From IMG/VR virus record IMGVR_UViG_3300047560_001061, positions 1 through 39,820 of that record: DNA of 39,820 bases; one strand, written 5' to 3'. Position 1 is the stretch's first letter, and every line of letters begins with the position of its first letter. The notes beneath the pieces were generated by a model. That model was given only the letters and a program-made list of their open reading frames with translations, did not search any database and was not told the origin of the DNA. Below are positions 25,559-33,918 of the stretch, piece by piece. Source of the DNA: a virus. The position numbers and the translations under genes are program-made.

Positions 25559-26602
25559 CTACTTTTTATACAGTTCAAGGTTAGCGATCAGTCTAAGATT
25601 ATTCGGGGACATCTCTACAGCCTTTGTTCCATACAACAAGGCTTCTTCTTTAAATCCCAAGTTCCAGGCAGAAATTGCTGCTAGATCATATGGTAAATCT
25701 CCCCATGCAAATTCTTCACATAGGTAGTCTAATGGTTTTTCTTCTATCCTGATGGCATCTAGACATGCCCAATAACAGTTCTGCCAATCCTGCTTCTCAT
25801 AGAAATATTGTGCATATTCTACAAGAGGTTCTCGTCTTCCTGGAGATTCATTAATTGCTTTATTTAGATATTCATGTGTTAGTGCTGGGATACATTTAGC
25901 AAGATATCTATATGATGATGCACGTTCTGGCCCCCAAGTTGCTTTGGGAAGAGATAGATGTCTCTTAAATTCTGATGCTGCTTTGTCGAACATTCCATTA
26001 TAAAAGTACTCTCTAGCTAGGTAGTAGGAGTTTCTATCATCTGTCAGATCTTCAGATACCGCCAGTTCTAGGAGAGGGAAATACTGTCCTCTTGACTTAG
26101 AAGAGTCTGGATGATGCTCTATCTGAAGTTTTGTCCATTCTTGAATTTCTTCTAGCCTATCTGAAACAATTACTTCATGAACAGGATGCTTCCATCTATA
26201 TCCATGACGTTTGTGGATTTTATCTCCACCATACTGTAGTCCAGGAGAGCCATCTTCTTGCCAAGACCAAGTATATTGGTAACGTGGTCTAGTTGTCTCT
26301 GGACGAACCTTTTCTAGCTCTTCTCGCCATCCTGGAAGAAGGACTTCATCCATGTCCAGAGCAATACACATATCGATGTCGTTAGGAAGGAGAGCAAGAG
26401 AAGCATTCCTAGCATCATCAAACCGCCAAGGGCTAATGGAAGCAATAGAAGTATTAACACCACACTCATTTGCAATAGAAACTGTCTTGTCTGTACTACC
26501 AGTATCCAGAATAAATCTATAATCTGCATCTTTACAGCTATTGGCCCATCTCTCAACAAATTGTTCCTCATTCTTTGCAATTGCATAAACTGCAATCTTC
26601 AT
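25559..26602 (-). CDS. GT2-family glycosyltransferase with TPR-like C-terminus
   Basis: 347 residues. The GT-A nucleotide-sugar domain is clear: MKIAVYAIAKNEEQFVERW, LDTGSTDKT (33-40), WRFDDARNASLALLP and the DxD-type metal site DMDE (83-86). KHPVHEVIV follows, as in related enzymes. From ~190 onward helices resembling tetratricopeptide repeats (YYLAREYFYNGMFDKAASEF, ASSYRYLAKCIP) form a protein-binding extension. The enzyme would transfer sugar from a nucleotide donor to a protein or surface acceptor. In this fibre block the target may be a virion protein, or a host surface molecule, but that is inference. ATG 26602 shares a base with the preceding stop (TAATG). Confidence 0.9.
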   Translation of the reverse strand: MKIAVYAIAKNEEQFVERWANSCKDADYRFILDTGSTDKTVSIANECGVNTSIASISPWRFDDARNASLALLPNDIDMCIALDMDEVLLPGWREELEKVRPETTRPRYQYTWSWQEDGSPGLQYGGDKIHKRHGYRWKHPVHEVIVSDRLEEIQEWTKLQIEHHPDSSKSRGQYFPLLELAVSEDLTDDRNSYYLAREYFYNGMFDKAASEFKRHLSLPKATWGPERASSYRYLAKCIPALTHEYLNKAINESPGRREPLVEYAQYFYEKQDWQNCYWACLDAIRIEEKPLDYLCEEFAWGDLPYDLAAISAWNLGFKEEALLYGTKAVEMSPNNLRLIANLELYKK

Positions 26603-27255
26603 TAGCTAAAGTTCTTTCTCTTCCAGAATTTTCTCTTATAGAAATTAAATGGAGGTGAATGAAGCTGATTTAAAAATGATACAGGTACTATGGCATCTTT
26701 TTCATTTTCTACATCTGCTTTCCATTCTTCTCTTTTGAATGGAATTACCTGTGCAATAGGAGTTCCCTCAAGAATTATACCAGTAAAATCTTTTTGGACC
26801 AAGAATGGGAAGTTTACTGGTGCTGGGAATTCATCAGTATCTACCACTCCAGATAATGTAAAGAATGGTAGATCTAATCTATTCGCTGGATGCATGAACA
26901 AAGAACTGTATCCTTTTGGAGTTTGTGCAATAAAATAATTTATCCACTTTAATGGAGTCTGTGCATATATCTCTGATGTTATTGCTGGGGAAATCTGAGA
27001 GTCTATGTGTGCCTCTACAAAAGATAACTCCGCTATCTGCTTGCATTCTCCATTTTCAAAGTATGTATCTGCTGAAAGGCAAATCGTGTATCCCATTGTC
27101 ATAGAGTCTAAGAATGGCATACATACCTTTACCGTTTCAATTCCTTCATGGACTCTAGGCATTAGCCTAAACCATTCTGGAACTACTCTTGCAGACGGTG
27201 TTGGGTCTTTAAGTAAAAACTTAGCTCGTGTTGTCTTGAATTTAATTTTCTTCAT
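26602..27255 (-). CDS. dUTPase-like-signature protein, paralogue 2
   Basis: 217 residues from ATG 27255, which is preceded by AAGGAGT. An in-frame ATG 27 bases upstream lacks a ribosome site. It is clearly homologous to the 230-residue gene at 27613. Shared blocks are VPEWF/YRL, C.PF.D.M..GY, TPKGYSSLFMHPANRLDLPF and SGVVDTDEF plus NFPFLVQKDFTGIILEGTPI, AQVIPFKRE. The SGVVDTD...EGTPIAQ pattern resembles motifs III-IV of trimeric dUTPase/dCTP-deaminase folds (GVIDxDYxG...GDRIAQL), but the catalytic residues of a dUTPase are not evident. It may be a structural or regulatory use of that fold. Function unknown; it overlaps the preceding small gene by 14 bases. Confidence 0.78.
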   Translation of the reverse strand: MKKIKFKTTRAKFLLKDPTPSARVVPEWFRLMPRVHEGIETVKVCMPFLDSMTMGYTICLSADTYFENGECKQIAELSFVEAHIDSQISPAITSEIYAQTPLKWINYFIAQTPKGYSSLFMHPANRLDLPFFTLSGVVDTDEFPAPVNFPFLVQKDFTGIILEGTPIAQVIPFKREEWKADVENEKDAIVPVSFLNQLHSPPFNFYKRKFWKRKNFS

Positions 27256-27613
27256 GTATAGACTCCTTAAACATGTTTTCATTATAGACTAGTCCTCTTT
27301 TGACCAGAGTTTCTTCGGGATTGAATTCAATAAATTTGTTTTCTGGATTTAGAAGAAAGTCTGCAGCAAGTTCATTTATTTTTAAAATCTCAACAACGAT
27401 GCCGTCATTAGAAATAACAGCAATTGATCTTGTTTTATACTGCTGCTCTTTTAGGGCATCAAAGCTTGATCCTGGTCTATAGACTATTTTCTTTTCCATC
27501 TTTTTTTCCATGATCTTTGTGTATAGAAGTTCTATAATCATTGATCGGATAGATGGCCTATGCTTATGTATAAGATCTCCATATATTCTATAAGATTTGT
27601 CTTTCTTAGCCAT
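27242..27613 (-). CDS. Small protein of unknown function between two paralogues
   Basis: 123 residues, basic N-terminal half (KSYRIYGDLIHKHRPSIRS, MEKKMEKKIVYRPGSS) and a mixed C-terminal half (RSIAVISNDGIVVEILKINE, LVYNENMFKESIHEEN). No domain recognised, no signal peptide. ATG 27613 overlaps the preceding stop by one base (TAATG), and AAGGAA lies just upstream. Its 3' end overlaps the next paralogue by 14 bases. The conserved arrangement of two paralogues around it suggests a functional set; function is unknown. Confidence 0.7.
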   Translation of the reverse strand: MAKKDKSYRIYGDLIHKHRPSIRSMIIELLYTKIMEKKMEKKIVYRPGSSFDALKEQQYKTRSIAVISNDGIVVEILKINELAADFLLNPENKFIEFNPEETLVKRGLVYNENMFKESIHEEN

Positions 27614-28305
27614 TAGTTATATTCCTTACGTTGCCAAAAATACTTTTTATAACTTTTACCTGGAGATCTTACGAACTCTCCCTGTAATCCCTCTAAGTAC
27701 TTAATACCCTCATCATTTTTAATGGAAGACCATTTTTCTCTTTTAATTGGTATTATTTGTGCAAATGGAGTTCCTTCTGGGATTACGCCAACAAAATCTT
27801 CTTTCATAAAGAATGGGATATTCCCTGATGTCGAATACTTGTCTGAATCCATGATTCCAGATGTAATTGTAAACGGAAGATCGTGTCTATTCAATGGATG
27901 AACGACAAGAACACTCCATCCTCTTGGAGTCTTAAAACCCCAAAATCCCTTAAAGGCTAAGTGGTTTGGTAAGTGACCTGCAGGTCTTGGCATTTTTTCA
28001 CCAAGTTCCTTTGTTCTTTCAGCGATAAAATCTTGGAATACACTATCTGAATTCCATCCAAGATGAAGAGATCCGTCTTCATTTCTTGACACAAAGATGT
28101 CCATCGGTGTTGTAAGAACATACCCTGATATCATTGCATCCATAAATGGAACACATTTCTTTAATCCAGAAGTCATTTCTTTGCTTATTGGATCTTCCAG
28201 CTCAGATTCTGATAGTCTATACCATTCTGGAAGTACTTTTTTAGCTGGAACTGGTTGCCCCACACCGCCAAATCTCTTGTCGGAGAAGAATCTAATAATT
28301 TTCAT
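27613..28305 (-). CDS. dUTPase-like-signature protein, paralogue 1
   Basis: 230 residues. It aligns with the 217-residue gene downstream along most of its length: VLPEWYRL, CVPFMDAMISGYVL, TPRGWSVLVVHPLNRHDLPF, TSGIMDSDKY, GNIPFFMKEDFVG and EGTPFAQIIPIKRE, ending in an aromatic basic tail YKKYFWQRKEYN. The block SGIMDSD...GN.PFF...EGTPFAQI has the spacing of dUTPase/dCTP-deaminase motifs, although nucleotide chemistry cannot be inferred from it. AGGGT precedes ATG 28305, which lies just beyond the Tyr/Thr-repeat gene stop. Cytoplasmic by composition. The role in the fibre region is unknown. Confidence 0.8.
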   Translation of the reverse strand: MKIIRFFSDKRFGGVGQPVPAKKVLPEWYRLSESELEDPISKEMTSGLKKCVPFMDAMISGYVLTTPMDIFVSRNEDGSLHLGWNSDSVFQDFIAERTKELGEKMPRPAGHLPNHLAFKGFWGFKTPRGWSVLVVHPLNRHDLPFTITSGIMDSDKYSTSGNIPFFMKEDFVGVIPEGTPFAQIIPIKREKWSSIKNDEGIKYLEGLQGEFVRSPGKSYKKYFWQRKEYN

Positions 28306-28311
28306 AATACC

Positions 28312-29565
28312 CTAGCTTCTACTAATTTCTATTGATGTTCCTATTATAGCACTTTGTCCATATGCAGATGGAGAGACTCCAATTCCATATTGAGTGGTAA
28401 CGGTAGCACCAGTAGCAGTATAAACTAGATCTGATCCAATCTGGGTAACAAGATTTGTATCAGAGTATGCTTTTGCTGTGATTTGTGTTCCAAGAATGGA
28501 CACAAGTATTGACTTTGCTGTTTGTGTGTTTGATAAAAGAGTGGACGAAAGCTCTGAAACTGTGTTTGATAGAGATCTCTTTAGTTTCAGATATTCACTA
28601 TAGGTAGTTGTAGTTCCAGATGCGTATGTATATGGGAATGATGTTGCATATGTTGGGTTAATGTATCCAGCAGTAAATGCATATCCTGTTCCAACAGCAT
28701 TTCCAATTGGGGTATAGCTAATTGGTGTTGTATATCCACTTCCATTTTGTGTTACAGCAGCTGTATAGGTTCCTCCAGCAACTGAGTATGGAACTCCAGG
28801 AGGAACGGTAAAGTATGTAGTATTTCCCATAACATAATATGTTGATGTTGTATATACAGTATCTGAACCAGAACTATATACGGTTCCTCCAGCAGAAGTG
28901 TATGGACCAGAAGCAATATAATAACTTGGTGGAATTTTGTAGTAGCTTCCAGCTGTATAAGTAACTGGTGCGGACCCAGACGTGTAGGTTATTCCAGGAC
29001 TCTTGCTATAGACAACATATGTGCTATATGGAGTTTGTCCTTGTGTTGTCACTGTATTATATGGTGCTGCCTGATATGAAGTATAGTTTCCATCGGTAAA
29101 AGAATAGTTATATGGAGTTCCTACAGAATAATTATATGAATAGTTGTATTGGTAGCTATACTGAACATTTCCTGAAGTATAGAAATAACTCCAATATGTA
29201 GCAGAAGCATAATTAGTGTTTGTTACTTGTGTACCCTCGACATTAACCATCCACCAGTCTGAAGAGCTTTGTACCCAAAGAGCAACTGCAGATCCTTCAT
29301 TTGTTCCTGATAACTTAACCACATTGTTGAATGTTGGCATGGCAACTGTAGATATTGGGTATGATGAGCCTGATGCTCCAGGATTAGGAGTAGTAGTAGT
29401 GGTAGCTGCTCCAGACACAATGTTAATTGTTCCATTCAGAGGATTCCAGACTTGTCCACTTGTAGAAGCTCCAAGGCCTCCAGTAGTATTTGCTCTTGAG
29501 GAAAAGATGTCTGAAAATTTTTGTTGCACTGAGCTAAAGATTGATCCAGAGAATATTCTTGCCAT
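28312..29565 (-). CDS. Tyr/Thr/Ser/Gly-repeat fibre protein, copy 2
   Basis: 417 residues, paralogous to the 496-residue gene just upstream. Residues 1-~125 form a conserved N-terminal domain (NTTGGLGASTSGQVW, GTNEGSAVALWVQSSSDWWM, VNVEGTQVTNTNYASATYWS). The middle (~125-320) is low complexity, with Tyr-Thr-Ser-Gly/Ala units such as YNYSVGTPYNYSFTDGNY. The last ~100 residues repeat the conserved C-terminus (SEYLKLKRSLSNTVSEL, YTATGATVTTQYGIGVSPSA). This conserved-ends, variable-middle layout suggests a fibre shaft with attachment and tip domains. A AAGGAGGG site begins right at the upstream stop, with a long 13-base spacing to ATG 29565. Function inferred. Confidence 0.78.
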   Translation of the reverse strand: MARIFSGSIFSSVQQKFSDIFSSRANTTGGLGASTSGQVWNPLNGTINIVSGAATTTTTPNPGASGSSYPISTVAMPTFNNVVKLSGTNEGSAVALWVQSSSDWWMVNVEGTQVTNTNYASATYWSYFYTSGNVQYSYQYNYSYNYSVGTPYNYSFTDGNYTSYQAAPYNTVTTQGQTPYSTYVVYSKSPGITYTSGSAPVTYTAGSYYKIPPSYYIASGPYTSAGGTVYSSGSDTVYTTSTYYVMGNTTYFTVPPGVPYSVAGGTYTAAVTQNGSGYTTPISYTPIGNAVGTGYAFTAGYINPTYATSFPYTYASGTTTTYSEYLKLKRSLSNTVSELSSTLLSNTQTAKSILVSILGTQITAKAYSDTNLVTQIGSDLVYTATGATVTTQYGIGVSPSAYGQSAIIGTSIEISRS

Positions 29566-29584: not shown

Positions 29585-31075
29585 TTAATTTCTGTTTATT
29601 TCAACAGATGTTCCTATTATAGCACTTTGGTTATAGGCGGAAGGCGACACTCCTATTCCATATTGAGTAGTAATTGTGGCTCCAGTTGCTGTATAAACCA
29701 GATCAGCTCCGATCTGTGATACAAAGTTTGTATCTGAGTATCCCTTTGCTGTAATCTGATTTCCAAAAATTGATACAACTAGTGACTTAATACTTTGAGC
29801 ATTTGATAGTAGTGATGAAGAAACCTCAGAAACCGTATTTGCTACTGATTTCTTAATCTTTAAGTATTCGCTGTATGTTGTGGTTGTTCCAGATGCATAG
29901 GTATAGTATGTAGAACCAGTTGTCAGAGCAAATCCTGATGTTGTCACAAAGAAGTATGTGCCTGGAGCATTTGTCAATGCTGTGTTATATGCATAAGAAT
30001 ATGGTGTACCGCTTACAAAACCAGATGTATAAGGAATTGAACTTGTATATGGAACTGCTGACGAGTATCCTGGTGGAATTACAGTATATGTTGCTGCTCC
30101 AGAAGTATAAACAGCTGCTCCAGAAGTATAAAAAATTGTAGCACTTGCGGTATAGTTAGTTGCTCCAACTGTATATGGAGCACCATATGCTGTAACTCCA
30201 GCTGTATAGGTAGTTGGTCCAGCAGTATATGTTGTTGCACCTTTTGTATAGTTTGTAAAAGGTGCTGCGGTATAAGCAACACCACCACCACCAGAAGAAT
30301 ACGATGCTGATGAAATGTAGTATGTATTTGATAGCTTATAGTAGCTAGTTGGTCCCTTTGTATAGTTTGTAGGGACACTTCCAGATGTAAAGTTAGCACC
30401 GCTTCCTGTTGTATATGGTGCACCGCTGCTATATGCAGTACTTCCAGTATATGGGGTTGATCCAGATGCTGTATATGGTGTACTAGACCAGTAATCTCGT
30501 GCAGATGTATATGGGTTTGCAGATGTATATGGAATTGCAGAAGCAAAAACTGCATAAAATGTTGTTGCTCCAGAAGTAAAGCTTATTGTAGGACTTGATG
30601 TCAACTGATATGAGTACGAAGGGAAGGTATATGACTGAACTGCATAGTTATAAACATAGTTGCTTGGATTTGCCTGGGTGTATTGATAAGCATAGTTATA
30701 GCTCCAGTATGTTGTGCCAGCATAATTTGTATTTGTTACCTGGGTTCCTTCGACATTTACCATCCACCAATCGGATGATGACTGAACCCACAGTGCTACT
30801 GCAGATCCTTCATTGGTATTTGCAATTTTAATTACATTGTTTGGGGTTGGTAGATTAACAATTGCTAAGGGATATGTACTTCCAGCTCCTCCTGAAGTTG
30901 GAGTTATTGTTGCTGTAGCTGCACCAGATGTTACTTGAATTGTTCCATTAACAGCAGTCCACTGAGAGCCGTCAGATGCTACTCCTAGTGAGCCTGTGGT
31001 ATTTGTTCGTGATGAAACATCGTCATAGAATCTTTTTCGTATTGCTGCAGCAGCCGCTCCTATATTAAATCTCAT
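29585..31075 (-). CDS. Tyr/Thr/Ser/Gly-repeat fibre protein, copy 1
   Basis: 496 residues from ATG 31075, which shares a base with the stop of the collagen-like gene (TAATG). A longer reading upstream would run through that gene in another frame and is rejected. The N-terminal ~145 residues (TNTTGSLGVASDGSQW, NEGSAVALWVQSSSDWWMVN) and the C-terminal ~100 (SEYLKIKKSVANTVSEVSS, YTATGATITTQYGIGVSPSA) match copy 2 closely. The middle is longer and made of short units such as YTAGPTTYTAG, YTSGAAVYTSGAA and TNYTKGPTSY. It has no signal peptide or membrane span. Likely a trimeric-type fibre or adhesin; recombination between the two copies looks possible. The function is inferred. Confidence 0.78.
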   Translation of the reverse strand: MRFNIGAAAAAIRKRFYDDVSSRTNTTGSLGVASDGSQWTAVNGTIQVTSGAATATITPTSGGAGSTYPLAIVNLPTPNNVIKIANTNEGSAVALWVQSSSDWWMVNVEGTQVTNTNYAGTTYWSYNYAYQYTQANPSNYVYNYAVQSYTFPSYSYQLTSSPTISFTSGATTFYAVFASAIPYTSANPYTSARDYWSSTPYTASGSTPYTGSTAYSSGAPYTTGSGANFTSGSVPTNYTKGPTSYYKLSNTYYISSASYSSGGGGVAYTAAPFTNYTKGATTYTAGPTTYTAGVTAYGAPYTVGATNYTASATIFYTSGAAVYTSGAATYTVIPPGYSSAVPYTSSIPYTSGFVSGTPYSYAYNTALTNAPGTYFFVTTSGFALTTGSTYYTYASGTTTTYSEYLKIKKSVANTVSEVSSSLLSNAQSIKSLVVSIFGNQITAKGYSDTNFVSQIGADLVYTATGATITTQYGIGVSPSAYNQSAIIGTSVEINRN

Positions 31076-33918
31076 TATGTGGTCAAGTCTCCAGATACAA
31101 CCCATGTATCTGTAGCACGTTTGACTAATGTGACAATTGACCATTGAGCACGTAGTTTTAGTCCTGGAGTTCCATTTACAGTTACCCCAGCACCAGCAGT
31201 AATTGTAGTCTGCCCTGCCCCTGTTTGAAGGACTGTAATGGTTGTTCCAGTAGCAAACGCTACAGAAGAGTTTGGTGGAACTGTTAAAGTATTTGCAGAA
31301 GCAACATTTAGCTCTACCATTTGATTTTTGTCAGTCAGAGCTAGTGTGTATGATGCTGTTTGAGCATTTATAGCTGTAAGTGTAGGGGCATCTGCACCAG
31401 CAGGACCTGTGGGACCAGTAGGCCCTGTAGCTCCAGTGGAGCCATTATTTCCTGGAATACCCTGTGGACCTGTAGGTCCTGTAGGACCAGTTGGTCCAGT
31501 TGGACCTTGAATACCCTGTGGACCAGTAGGTCCAGTAACTGTGCTTGCAGCACCAGTAGCACCAGTTGGACCTGTAGGTCCAGTAACTGTGCTTGCAGCA
31601 CCAGTAGCTCCTGTAGGACCTGTTGGACCAGTAACCGTAGATGCTGCACCAGTTGCTCCTATAGGACCTGTAGGTCCTTGAATGCCTTGTGCTCCTGTAG
31701 GTCCAGTAGGTCCTGTATTTCCTATAAATCCTTGAGGCCCTGTTGGACCAGTTACTCCAGTTAGTCCTGTTGGACCTGTTGGGCCTGTAGCACCATCTGC
31801 ACCAGCAGGACCTTGTGGACCAACAATTTGACCAGCATCAAACCAAGAAGAACCATTCCAAACATATAGATCTCCGTCAGCCTCTACGATATAGGCATCA
31901 TTAACTGAGTTTCCAGTAGCAGGAAGAAGTATTACTGTTGCTACTGACCCCTTAAGGTTTATAGATGTTCCAGCAGACCCTTGAGGACCAGTTGGTCCTG
32001 TTGGACCAGTTGGGACAGGTTGATTTTTCCATAATCCAGTTGATTCTTCATATGTCAAAACTTGGTTGTTTGTTGGTGTTGATATTAGAACATTGTGAAG
32101 TTCATCAAGTTCATATCCATTTTGTGGCTTAACATAAATTCCTCCATTGCCACCATTCGTTTTTTGGACAACGCCAACAAAAACCATATGATTAGGTGCA
32201 GATGGCTTTGTTGTTGTAAATGTTCCTGGTGTGCTTCCTAGCCAAAGAACGTCTCCAGCAGAATATGCAGATAGGTTTAATCCATTTACTACACCTTGAG
32301 TAGTTACAAATCCAAGTTGTCCTGCAGCGATTGGTTCTGTTACTACACCAAAAGTTTTTGAAGATGTTAGTTCAGATGTGTTGGATGCACGTTTTACTGT
32401 AGCGTGATCTCCTTGAGCACCATATAGATAAACAACCTCTCCATCAAGTAGCGTTGTGGATTCTGCGTTTCTTACATATGCAACAAACTCTTGACCAATT
32501 TGAAGATTTACATTGCCACCAACAAGTCCTACCTGTGGTGTTCCCCATGCTTGATCCCAAATAATTTTTCCAACATTAGTTGTTGGGGTAGCTGTAGTAT
32601 CTAGCTGAACACCGCTAAGAGAAGTAATTCCATTGGCATCACGCTGAACTAAGTAATTAGCAGTATTTGCAGATGCTGAGTTTGCACCGATAACAGCAGA
32701 AGTGGATGTTCCAGAATTTGTTATAGGACCAGTTACAGAGATAACCCCAGAAGGTCCAGTTGGTCCTATAGCACCAGTTGGCCCTGTGACAGTGCTTGCT
32801 GCACCAGTAGGTCCTGTTGGACCAGTTGGACCAGTAGCACCATCAGCACCAATGTATCCATCAGCACCTTGAGGACCAGTAGGTCCTGTTGGGCCGTGGA
32901 CAGCTGGAGCATTTACCCATGCCTGAAGTCCTGCATCAAAAGCAAGGATATCTCCATCGGCAATTGTTTCTGGATTTAAAAGAATATCTCTAAGTTCACC
33001 TAAAGTAGGAAGGAATTTAGAATAAACAAGAATTTCACCATCAATGGCGTGACTATAAAGACATACGCCAACAGCAGTTCCATAATAAATATCGGTAGGG
33101 AAATCTGTAGTAAGTTGTCCACTATCCCAGGTAAATACTACCTGACCCTCGGCAAGTGCAGAGGTATCTAGTCCATGAACAATACCATAGGTTGTACAGT
33201 ATCCTAATTCTCCAGGAGCAACGTCCTCAGTCATAATTCCTAGGAATCGTTCTGCAGAAAAGTCATTTGTATTCGTTGTATTATCTACAACAATATTTTG
33301 GTTATCAGATCCAACTATATATACAGCGGTTCCGTTTAACAGGGTATGTGTAGCACCATTCTTTACAAGCTGGTTTAGTTCTTGACCAATCTGAAGAGTT
33401 ACCCCAGGATCTTTCATCTGGAATTCTAGTGTGCCGTATTCGGCGTTCCAAGCAATCTGTCCAACATTCTGAGATCTAAAATCTTGTGATGTATCAAATT
33501 GTGCATATTGTAGGGTTGAGATATGTGTAAAAGCATCTTCATCGACAAACAGTACTTGTGCTTCTGGAATGTATTGTGCAGGACCAGTTGCAGAGATTAC
33601 TCCCGATGGACCAGTAGGTCCAGTTGGACCAACATTTCCCTGAGCACCTGTAGGTCCAGTAACATTGCTGGCCTCTCCTTGTGGGCCTGTAGGTCCTGTA
33701 GGGCCAATTAGACCGATAGGACCTTCTAGTCCTTGTGGGCCTTGATCTCCTTGAGGACCTGTTGGTCCAGTAGTTAAAGAAATAGCATCAACATATAATT
33801 TTGTGGTAGCGTCTGTTGGCCCTTGTGGGGTTCCTACGGATACAGGACCGCCAAAAGATCCTCCTTCAGTTACCTGAATTCCTTTTTTTACTTTAAAGTC
33901 TTTGTTTGATGTAGACAC
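31075..33918 (-). CDS. Collagen-like tail fibre protein
   Basis: 947 residues with a GTG start at 33918 preceded by AGGAG. The N-terminus ([17 protein letters not shown]) resembles phage fibre attachment sequences and matches that of the 461-residue fibre upstream. Gly-X-Y collagen-like tracts ([10 protein letters not shown]) occur at about residues 50-115, 340-400, 640-660 and 705-845. They are separated by two copies of a globular domain ([20 protein letters not shown] and [18 protein letters not shown], both followed by a capsid-like beta domain). The C-terminal ~100 residues ([35 protein letters not shown]) match the end of the 261-residue fibre. It likely forms a trimeric fibre with a receptor-binding tip. 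Confidence 0.87.
31528..31675 (-). repeat. Three 48-bp tandem repeats in the collagen-like gene
   Basis: Units begin near 31532, 31580 and 31628 and share CCAGTAACTGTGCTTGCAGC-type sequence (third unit slightly diverged). Each encodes 16 residues of the type [16 protein letters not shown]. The unit interrupts the Gly-X-Y register with AASTVT, so it is a repeat of the local motif rather than a pure collagen run. Confidence 0.85.

Follow-up and report, generated by a model that had tools for sequence, protein, structure and literature searches.

The window analysed here, which is the whole 39,820-nucleotide (nt) stretch of the IMG/VR virus record IMGVR_UViG_3300047560_001061, carries two minus-strand genes that flank a small gene and encode proteins of 230 amino acids (aa; 27613..28305) and 217 aa (26602..27255). 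For the 217-aa protein, an internal ATG was taken as the start; an alternative 226-aa reading begins at 27282, but homologues start with MKkIkF. The initial annotation had described the two products as homologues with motifs resembling motifs III and IV of the trimeric dUTPase/dCTP deaminase (DCD) fold. Both ORFs proved to be real, and their products are paralogues that align over their full length (31 % identity, 232 columns, E value 2e-42). The quoted motifs are exact in the sequence: one paralogue has SGIMDSD, NIPFF and EGTPFAQIIPIKRE and the other SGVVDTD, NFPF and EGTPIAQVIPFKRE, with SG-(I/V)-x-D-x-D, N-x-PF and EGTP-x-AQ common to both. In the 230-aa protein, whose residue numbers are used for the family throughout, the codons of the motif III-like stretch (residues 150–155, GIMDSD) lie at 27841..27858 and those of the motif IV-like stretch (residues 178–183, GTPFAQ) at 27757..27774, counted on the minus strand from the start at 28305; both were placed by conservation and by PDB profile alignment to the corresponding dUTPase motifs. 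Our analysis points to a dUTPase fold for both proteins and, far more tentatively, to a role in the making of fibres.

The fold was assessed using an AlphaFold2 model of the 230-aa protein, built on an alignment of 130 sequences (predicted local distance difference test, pLDDT, 95.7; predicted template modelling score 0.89). The best 50 rows of a Foldseek search of this model against the PDB were all dUTPases, DCDs or complexes of phage/staphylococcal pathogenicity island (SaPI) dUTPases (best E value 1.2e-4), with a DCD at rank 2. All 50 rows of the VIA-align comparison were dUTPases (Z 8.3–9.2), several of them superposing some 112–120 residues at a root-mean-square deviation (rmsd) of 3.0–3.7 (e.g. 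3ecy_A, rmsd 3.2 over 119 residues), and in a viral model library, dUTPases came after the direct relatives of the query. The model thus very probably places the window proteins in the dUTPase fold rather than in an unrelated one, and the fold read from motifs III and IV in the initial annotation withstands both of the checks set there, since the modelled fold is that of dUTPases and the signature occurs throughout the family.

Sequence comparisons gave evidence for this fold that is independent of the model, yet weak. Searching the PDB with the family profile (E value up to 10) returned only three matches, all dUTPases aligned through motifs III and IV, with E values of 0.5–1.8 that are non-significant alone. 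An hhalign comparison of the family with 22 genuine dUTPases (P=0.0011) reproduced the register of that PDB profile alignment. The Pfam dUTPase model was matched by 4 of the 130 family members (best E value 0.075), and neither window protein matched it (PF00692) at E values up to 1. The corresponding comparison with DCD was weak (P=0.05), and the window proteins gave no match to the Pfam DCD model (PF22769). One might argue that short motifs of an unrelated beta fold happen to coincide with those of dUTPases, given that the per-sequence and profile E values to dUTPases are individually non-significant. That reading has only a very slight chance of being right and is already contradicted by a high-confidence model whose top PDB rows are exclusively dUTPases and DCDs, and by an independent profile alignment in the same register.

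Both window proteins are full-length matches to phrog_7084 (230-aa protein, E value 1.5e-40; 217-aa protein, E value 1.2e-37), which is the same family and carries no description of function, subtypes or fold. They score 17.9 and 14.5 bits against Pfam DUF6065 (PF19541), below its gathering cut-off of 26.6, which several bacterial relatives in the same alignment exceed. The family as a whole aligns with DUF6065 over 132 columns (hhalign P 4.6e-7, probability 92.6), 78 of the 130 members match it at E values up to 1, and the C-x-P, TPxGW, N, G(L/I)(V/I)(D/E)(T/S)D and G(T/E)P motifs are shared; the bacterial DUF6065 sequences that we read differ in having Glu at the motif III Asp and in their ends. 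On these profile data, DUF6065 is a sister of the window family, with homology at the superfamily level. DUF6065 proper compared with dUTPases was non-significant (hhalign P 0.21) in a rough test, as two to three rows of the bacterial alignment were on the wrong strand; it is therefore the window subfamily, with its predicted structure, that carries the dUTPase link. An NCBIfam search gave a chance match only, and DUF6065 was not mentioned in the literature searched.

The phrog_7084 family is widespread across phages, haloviruses and proteobacteria. Relatives were found by tblastn in Hafunaviridae haloviruses and a few cyanophages; among the matches listed in scans of viral contigs, 570 of 600 stretches encode one, and scanned bacterial and archaeal genomes contributed 24 loci, most of them from proteobacteria. 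Such a phage-wide distribution would suit a nucleotide-sensing or sponge protein directed at host defence or signalling, in the manner of phage dUTPases binding Stl, the SaPI repressor; the top VIA-align match is the dUTPase of a staphylococcal phage, and dUTPase–Stl complexes make up several rows. We nevertheless consider a sensor or sponge improbable, as the genes are linked to fibre genes and not to early genes or defence islands, conserved members occur on bacterial chromosomes, and the PADLOC defence families gave one chance-level match only.

Across the 130 diverse relatives, the motif III and IV signatures proved to be family-wide. In motif III, G150 is conserved in 86 %, D153 in 91 % (Glu in 8 %; Asp or Glu in 99 %) and D155 in 95 %, while residue 157 is aromatic or His in 117 members, the family having one extra residue ahead of this aromatic. 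In motif IV, G178 and Q183 are each kept in 97 %, with P180 (99 %) at the position of the dUTPase Arg. Conservation of this strength argues that the shared motifs are not due to chance. D153 and Q183 lie 30 residues apart in 106 of the 130 members, compared with 29 in 18 of 20 genuine dUTPases, and hhalign places the family's TP-x-G-(Y/W) on the P-x-G strand of dUTPases, which leads into the motif II region. The family resembles trimeric dUTPases and, less clearly, DCDs in its predicted fold, the Asp-x-Asp and aromatic of motif III, and the Gly and Gln of motif IV.

It differs from them in being considerably longer, in often occurring as two complementary paralogues and in scoring below the Pfam cut-offs. 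Compared with dUTPases, it has x-N-R in place of the R-S-G of motif II, Pro for the motif IV Arg and no motif V; the initial annotation had likewise noted that motifs other than III and IV were not evident. Because several of the defining motifs are altered or missing, we do not file the family as a dUTPase. A second set of positions is newly near-invariant, namely K49, C51, D56, G61, K188, R189 and Y219, with the near-invariant polar residues spanning phages and bacteria and found in the halovirus sequences too. Such a set is what one expects of a rebuilt ligand or catalytic site. We had also considered that one of the paralogues might be an inactive enzyme; this was dropped, as both retain the key residues.

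FastTree phylogeny separated the two paralogues into subtypes. The 230-aa protein groups with members that carry R97 but lack Q101, here called R-type. The 217-aa protein groups with the H-type, whose members have both H97 and Q101 and which occurs in bacteria and basal members as well. Leaving out the stretch around residue 97 still recovered the type in 84 of 88 cases. Among 45 distinct loci with several copies, one gene of each type was present in 37, whereas shuffles gave 20.6 (at most 32 in 10,000 of them), and a second, new set of loci gave 17 of 21 against 9.2; these shuffles ignore shared ancestry. An old duplication is the best explanation for the two types.

The paralogues lie in a tightly packed stretch of minus-strand genes. 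The 230-aa (R-type) gene, the small gene (27242..27613, 123 aa), the 217-aa (H-type) gene and a glycosyltransferase gene (25559..26602; phrog_13126, beta-1,4-glycosyltransferase, E value 5.5e-108) overlap successively by 1, 14 and 1 nt, which gives this run the look of a single translationally coupled unit. The gene immediately upstream of the pair encodes a YT-rich fibre-like protein (28312..29565, minus strand), for which Pfam and PHROG gave no match.

The small middle gene likely encodes a tail-fibre-chaperone-like protein, as judged from its predicted fold. Its AlphaFold2 model (41 sequences) has a pLDDT of 78 overall and of about 90 over residues 61–110. Residues 59–121 superpose on residues 1–60 of gp25 of phage Pam3 (7ypx_a; VIA-align Z 6.9, rmsd 2.4, 57 residues), and the second best of 472 chains was Tfa of phage Mu (5yvq_B, Z 3.1); a Z below 8 can reflect a common arrangement. 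The chaperone assignment is considered likely because these top two rows are both fibre chaperones and the gene sits beside fibre genes. In gp25, the fibre is bound by the beta-sandwich (PMC9608196), and the middle-gene product is similarly predicted to have a small beta-sandwich domain of the fibre-binding kind. Its order is reversed relative to gp25 and Tfa, with the helix first and the beta domain last, and in contrast to gp25 the model has no C-terminal helical trimerization domain, showing one long helix (residues 22–37) and nothing after the beta domain. Sequence similarity to both proteins is non-significant; PHROGs and PDB sequence searches gave no identification of the middle gene, and the predicted fold alone did.

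We then compared neighbourhoods elsewhere, counting, in a first set of loci, what lies up to six genes away from a family member. The cluster that includes the fibre-like gene at 28312..29565 (c2) was represented in 43 loci and that of the chaperone-like gene in 41 loci. Nearby genes also encoded a DUF6171-like Cys-rich protein (34 loci), 2-oxoglutarate (2OG)-Fe(II) oxygenases (at least 23) and glycosyltransferases (at least 17). With a second set of loci (below) also considered, the link to fibres applies to a large part of the loci but not to all of them.

The tight linkage to fibre and chaperone-like genes could also mean that the proteins are non-catalytic components of the virion or of fibre assembly. 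The dUTPase fold is trimeric, so a threefold dUTPase-like trimer would match the symmetry of a trimeric fibre as its adaptor, cap or assembly partner, and the loss of enzyme motifs II and V would be of little surprise. We regard this as possible but doubtful. A near-invariant set of Cys, Lys, Asp, Gln and Tyr shared by members with as little as about 20–30 % identity is unusual for an adhesin-associated structural protein, and the retention of enzyme-like residues (C51, K49, D56, D153, D155, Q183, K188, R189 and Y219) means that purely structural reuse is not the obvious reading. In addition, chromosomal bacterial members lie outside recognizable fibre operons, and we found no report of the relative in halovirus HF2 among virion proteins, the text and annotation naming VP1 (495) and VP3 (590).

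The initial annotation had remarked that an enzyme context was missing. This stands for the window, where the neighbours are fibre-like genes and a glycosyltransferase, but not for the haloviruses, in which the relative has ribonucleotide reductase or thymidylate synthase on one side and the tail-fibre end on the other. In HF1-group haloviruses, host specificity correlates with HfxHF1_490 and HfxHF1_485, the two genes downstream of VP1 (PMC7230728). The relative HrrHF2_475 is located just past these two genes. HF2 (L018, 9908–10792) carries both a true DCD and the family's dUTPase-fold protein, so the two can co-exist in one virus. Among the cyanophages, the S-RIM4 relative lies 834 nt after the ribonucleotide reductase genes.

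These locations raise the prospect of a deoxynucleotide-pool enzyme, dUTPase- or DCD-like, that is encoded beside fibres by happenstance. The fold and the D/D/aromatic/Q residues are retained, and no canonical dUTPase or DCD was found in nearly all of the virus records tested, although virus contigs may be fragments. Such an enzyme is unlikely, however. Simple removal of dUTP is argued against both by the loss of motif II RSG and motif V and by the finding that, of 20 bacterial genomes with a family member, 18 have a genuine dUTPase of the normal kind; every one of the 20 matches the DCD model. HF2 encodes a DCD of its own, and two complementary paralogues would be unneeded for this purpose.

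Drawing on the fold, family, conserved residues, subtypes, gene context and chaperone-like middle-gene fold computed here, we infer an oligomer, a type of ligand and the fibre as target. With confidence that falls somewhat short of even, both for this proposal and for the functional role of the pair, we suggest that the R- and H-type genes encode dUTPase-fold subunits that would serve fibre maturation or modification through a cytoplasmic ligand-binding or catalytic complex. The two subtypes would be kept, together with the chaperone-like gene and the glycosyltransferase, in the overlapping stretch behind the fibre-like gene. Their products would be cytoplasmic and oligomeric, assembling by analogy with dUTPases as trimers that probably mix R and H subunits. 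A nucleotide-type or nucleotide-linked ligand may be bound at the position of the dUTPase active site, at a putative site formed by D153, D155, the aromatic residue 157 and Q183, along with the family-specific C51, K49, N139, R140, K188, R189 and Y219. Alongside the chaperone and glycosyltransferase, this ligand would be used to mature or chemically modify the fibre, or else a host-surface molecule, a role distinct from ordinary dUTP removal. A bolder version, which we hold with considerable doubt, is that a mixed R/H oligomer works with the fibre chaperone to modify or mature trimeric fibres, and that DUF6065 is a dUTPase-fold superfamily with its own chemistry on the near-invariant cysteine. 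As far as we could find, such a role has not been described for the dUTPase fold, and the literature searches brought up nothing relevant on this fold near tail fibres.

Several observations count against the proposed role of the pair and the fold on which it builds. With Z values near 9, the query-normalized TM-score is about 0.33, which marks a divergent match in a family with many extra residues. The consensus has H-P-x-N-R at the place of P-R-S-G in dUTPase motif II; no glycine-rich motif V arm is present, the C-terminus instead reading Y-K-x-x-x-W-x-(R/K)-K-Y; and the consensus contains no A-G-x-D-L of motif I, the nearest candidate being a tentatively placed SGYxL without the Asp. With motif II RSG and motif V lost and the motif I Asp not located, nucleotide binding is no more than putative. 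H-type genes occur alone in 38 of 49 single-copy loci of the new set, and the R/H pairing can reflect joint inheritance. In the second set, only 40 of 71 loci have any recurrent neighbour family (fibre, chaperone, 2OG oxygenase, glycosyltransferase or others) within about 6 kb, and in cyanophages S-RIM4 and Sf-CH8 the relative lies among metabolic genes and not near annotated fibre genes.

An obligatory R/H pair, which we had considered, is weakened by the frequency with which H-type members stand alone; for the same reason, the R-type looks like a specialized partner rather than half of such a pair.

What the analysis offers is a predicted fold and a two-subtype organization for DUF6065/phrog_7084, a large family of unknown function. 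An adhesin-adjacent gene product thereby becomes open to experiment: whether it binds nucleotides, whether the near-invariant cysteine is catalytic and whether the subtypes co-assemble. The pair suggests that an old nucleotide-enzyme fold may have been reused in making or modifying phage fibres and, if the fibre link is true, it would represent a new kind of component in the making of phage receptor-binding structures.

Further diverged relatives may exist in other viruses. Proteins of about 240 aa from clusters c19 (L067:6666–7376) and c18 (L072:3024–3749) are encoded between H- and R-type genes and, when neighbour clusters other than the long fibre clusters were compared with the family using hhalign, c19 matched over nearly its full length (P 5e-4) and c18 at P 0.014, the next-best cluster reaching 0.11. 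As none of the other clusters among the 24 neighbour clusters showed profile similarity to the family, c19 and c18 may represent a third, very diverged paralogue.

Other features recur around the family. The small Cys-rich DUF6171-like protein tends to follow shortly after family members (e.g. L036:8635–8958), and the 2OG-Fe(II) oxygenases sometimes occur several in a row (e.g. L074:3093–3725). At four loci from other viruses (L015, L017, L055 and L079), a lone R-type gene is directly preceded not by the fibre-like gene but by genes for a large protein (c33) and a predicted membrane protein (c21). The bacterial neighbourhoods examined gave no pointer to function; chromosomal members (L101, L103, L112, L114 and L117) are often close to ORFs resembling an extracytoplasmic function (ECF)-type sigma factor with its anti-sigma protein, a subtilase-like protein or a small secreted protein, as read from the sequences. 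In the window itself, 28312–29565 and 29585–31144 encode tandem, related YT-rich repeat proteins ahead of the pair that look like duplicated fibre genes, and the next gene upstream (31075–33918) encodes a collagen-like protein with GPTGPTG repeats.

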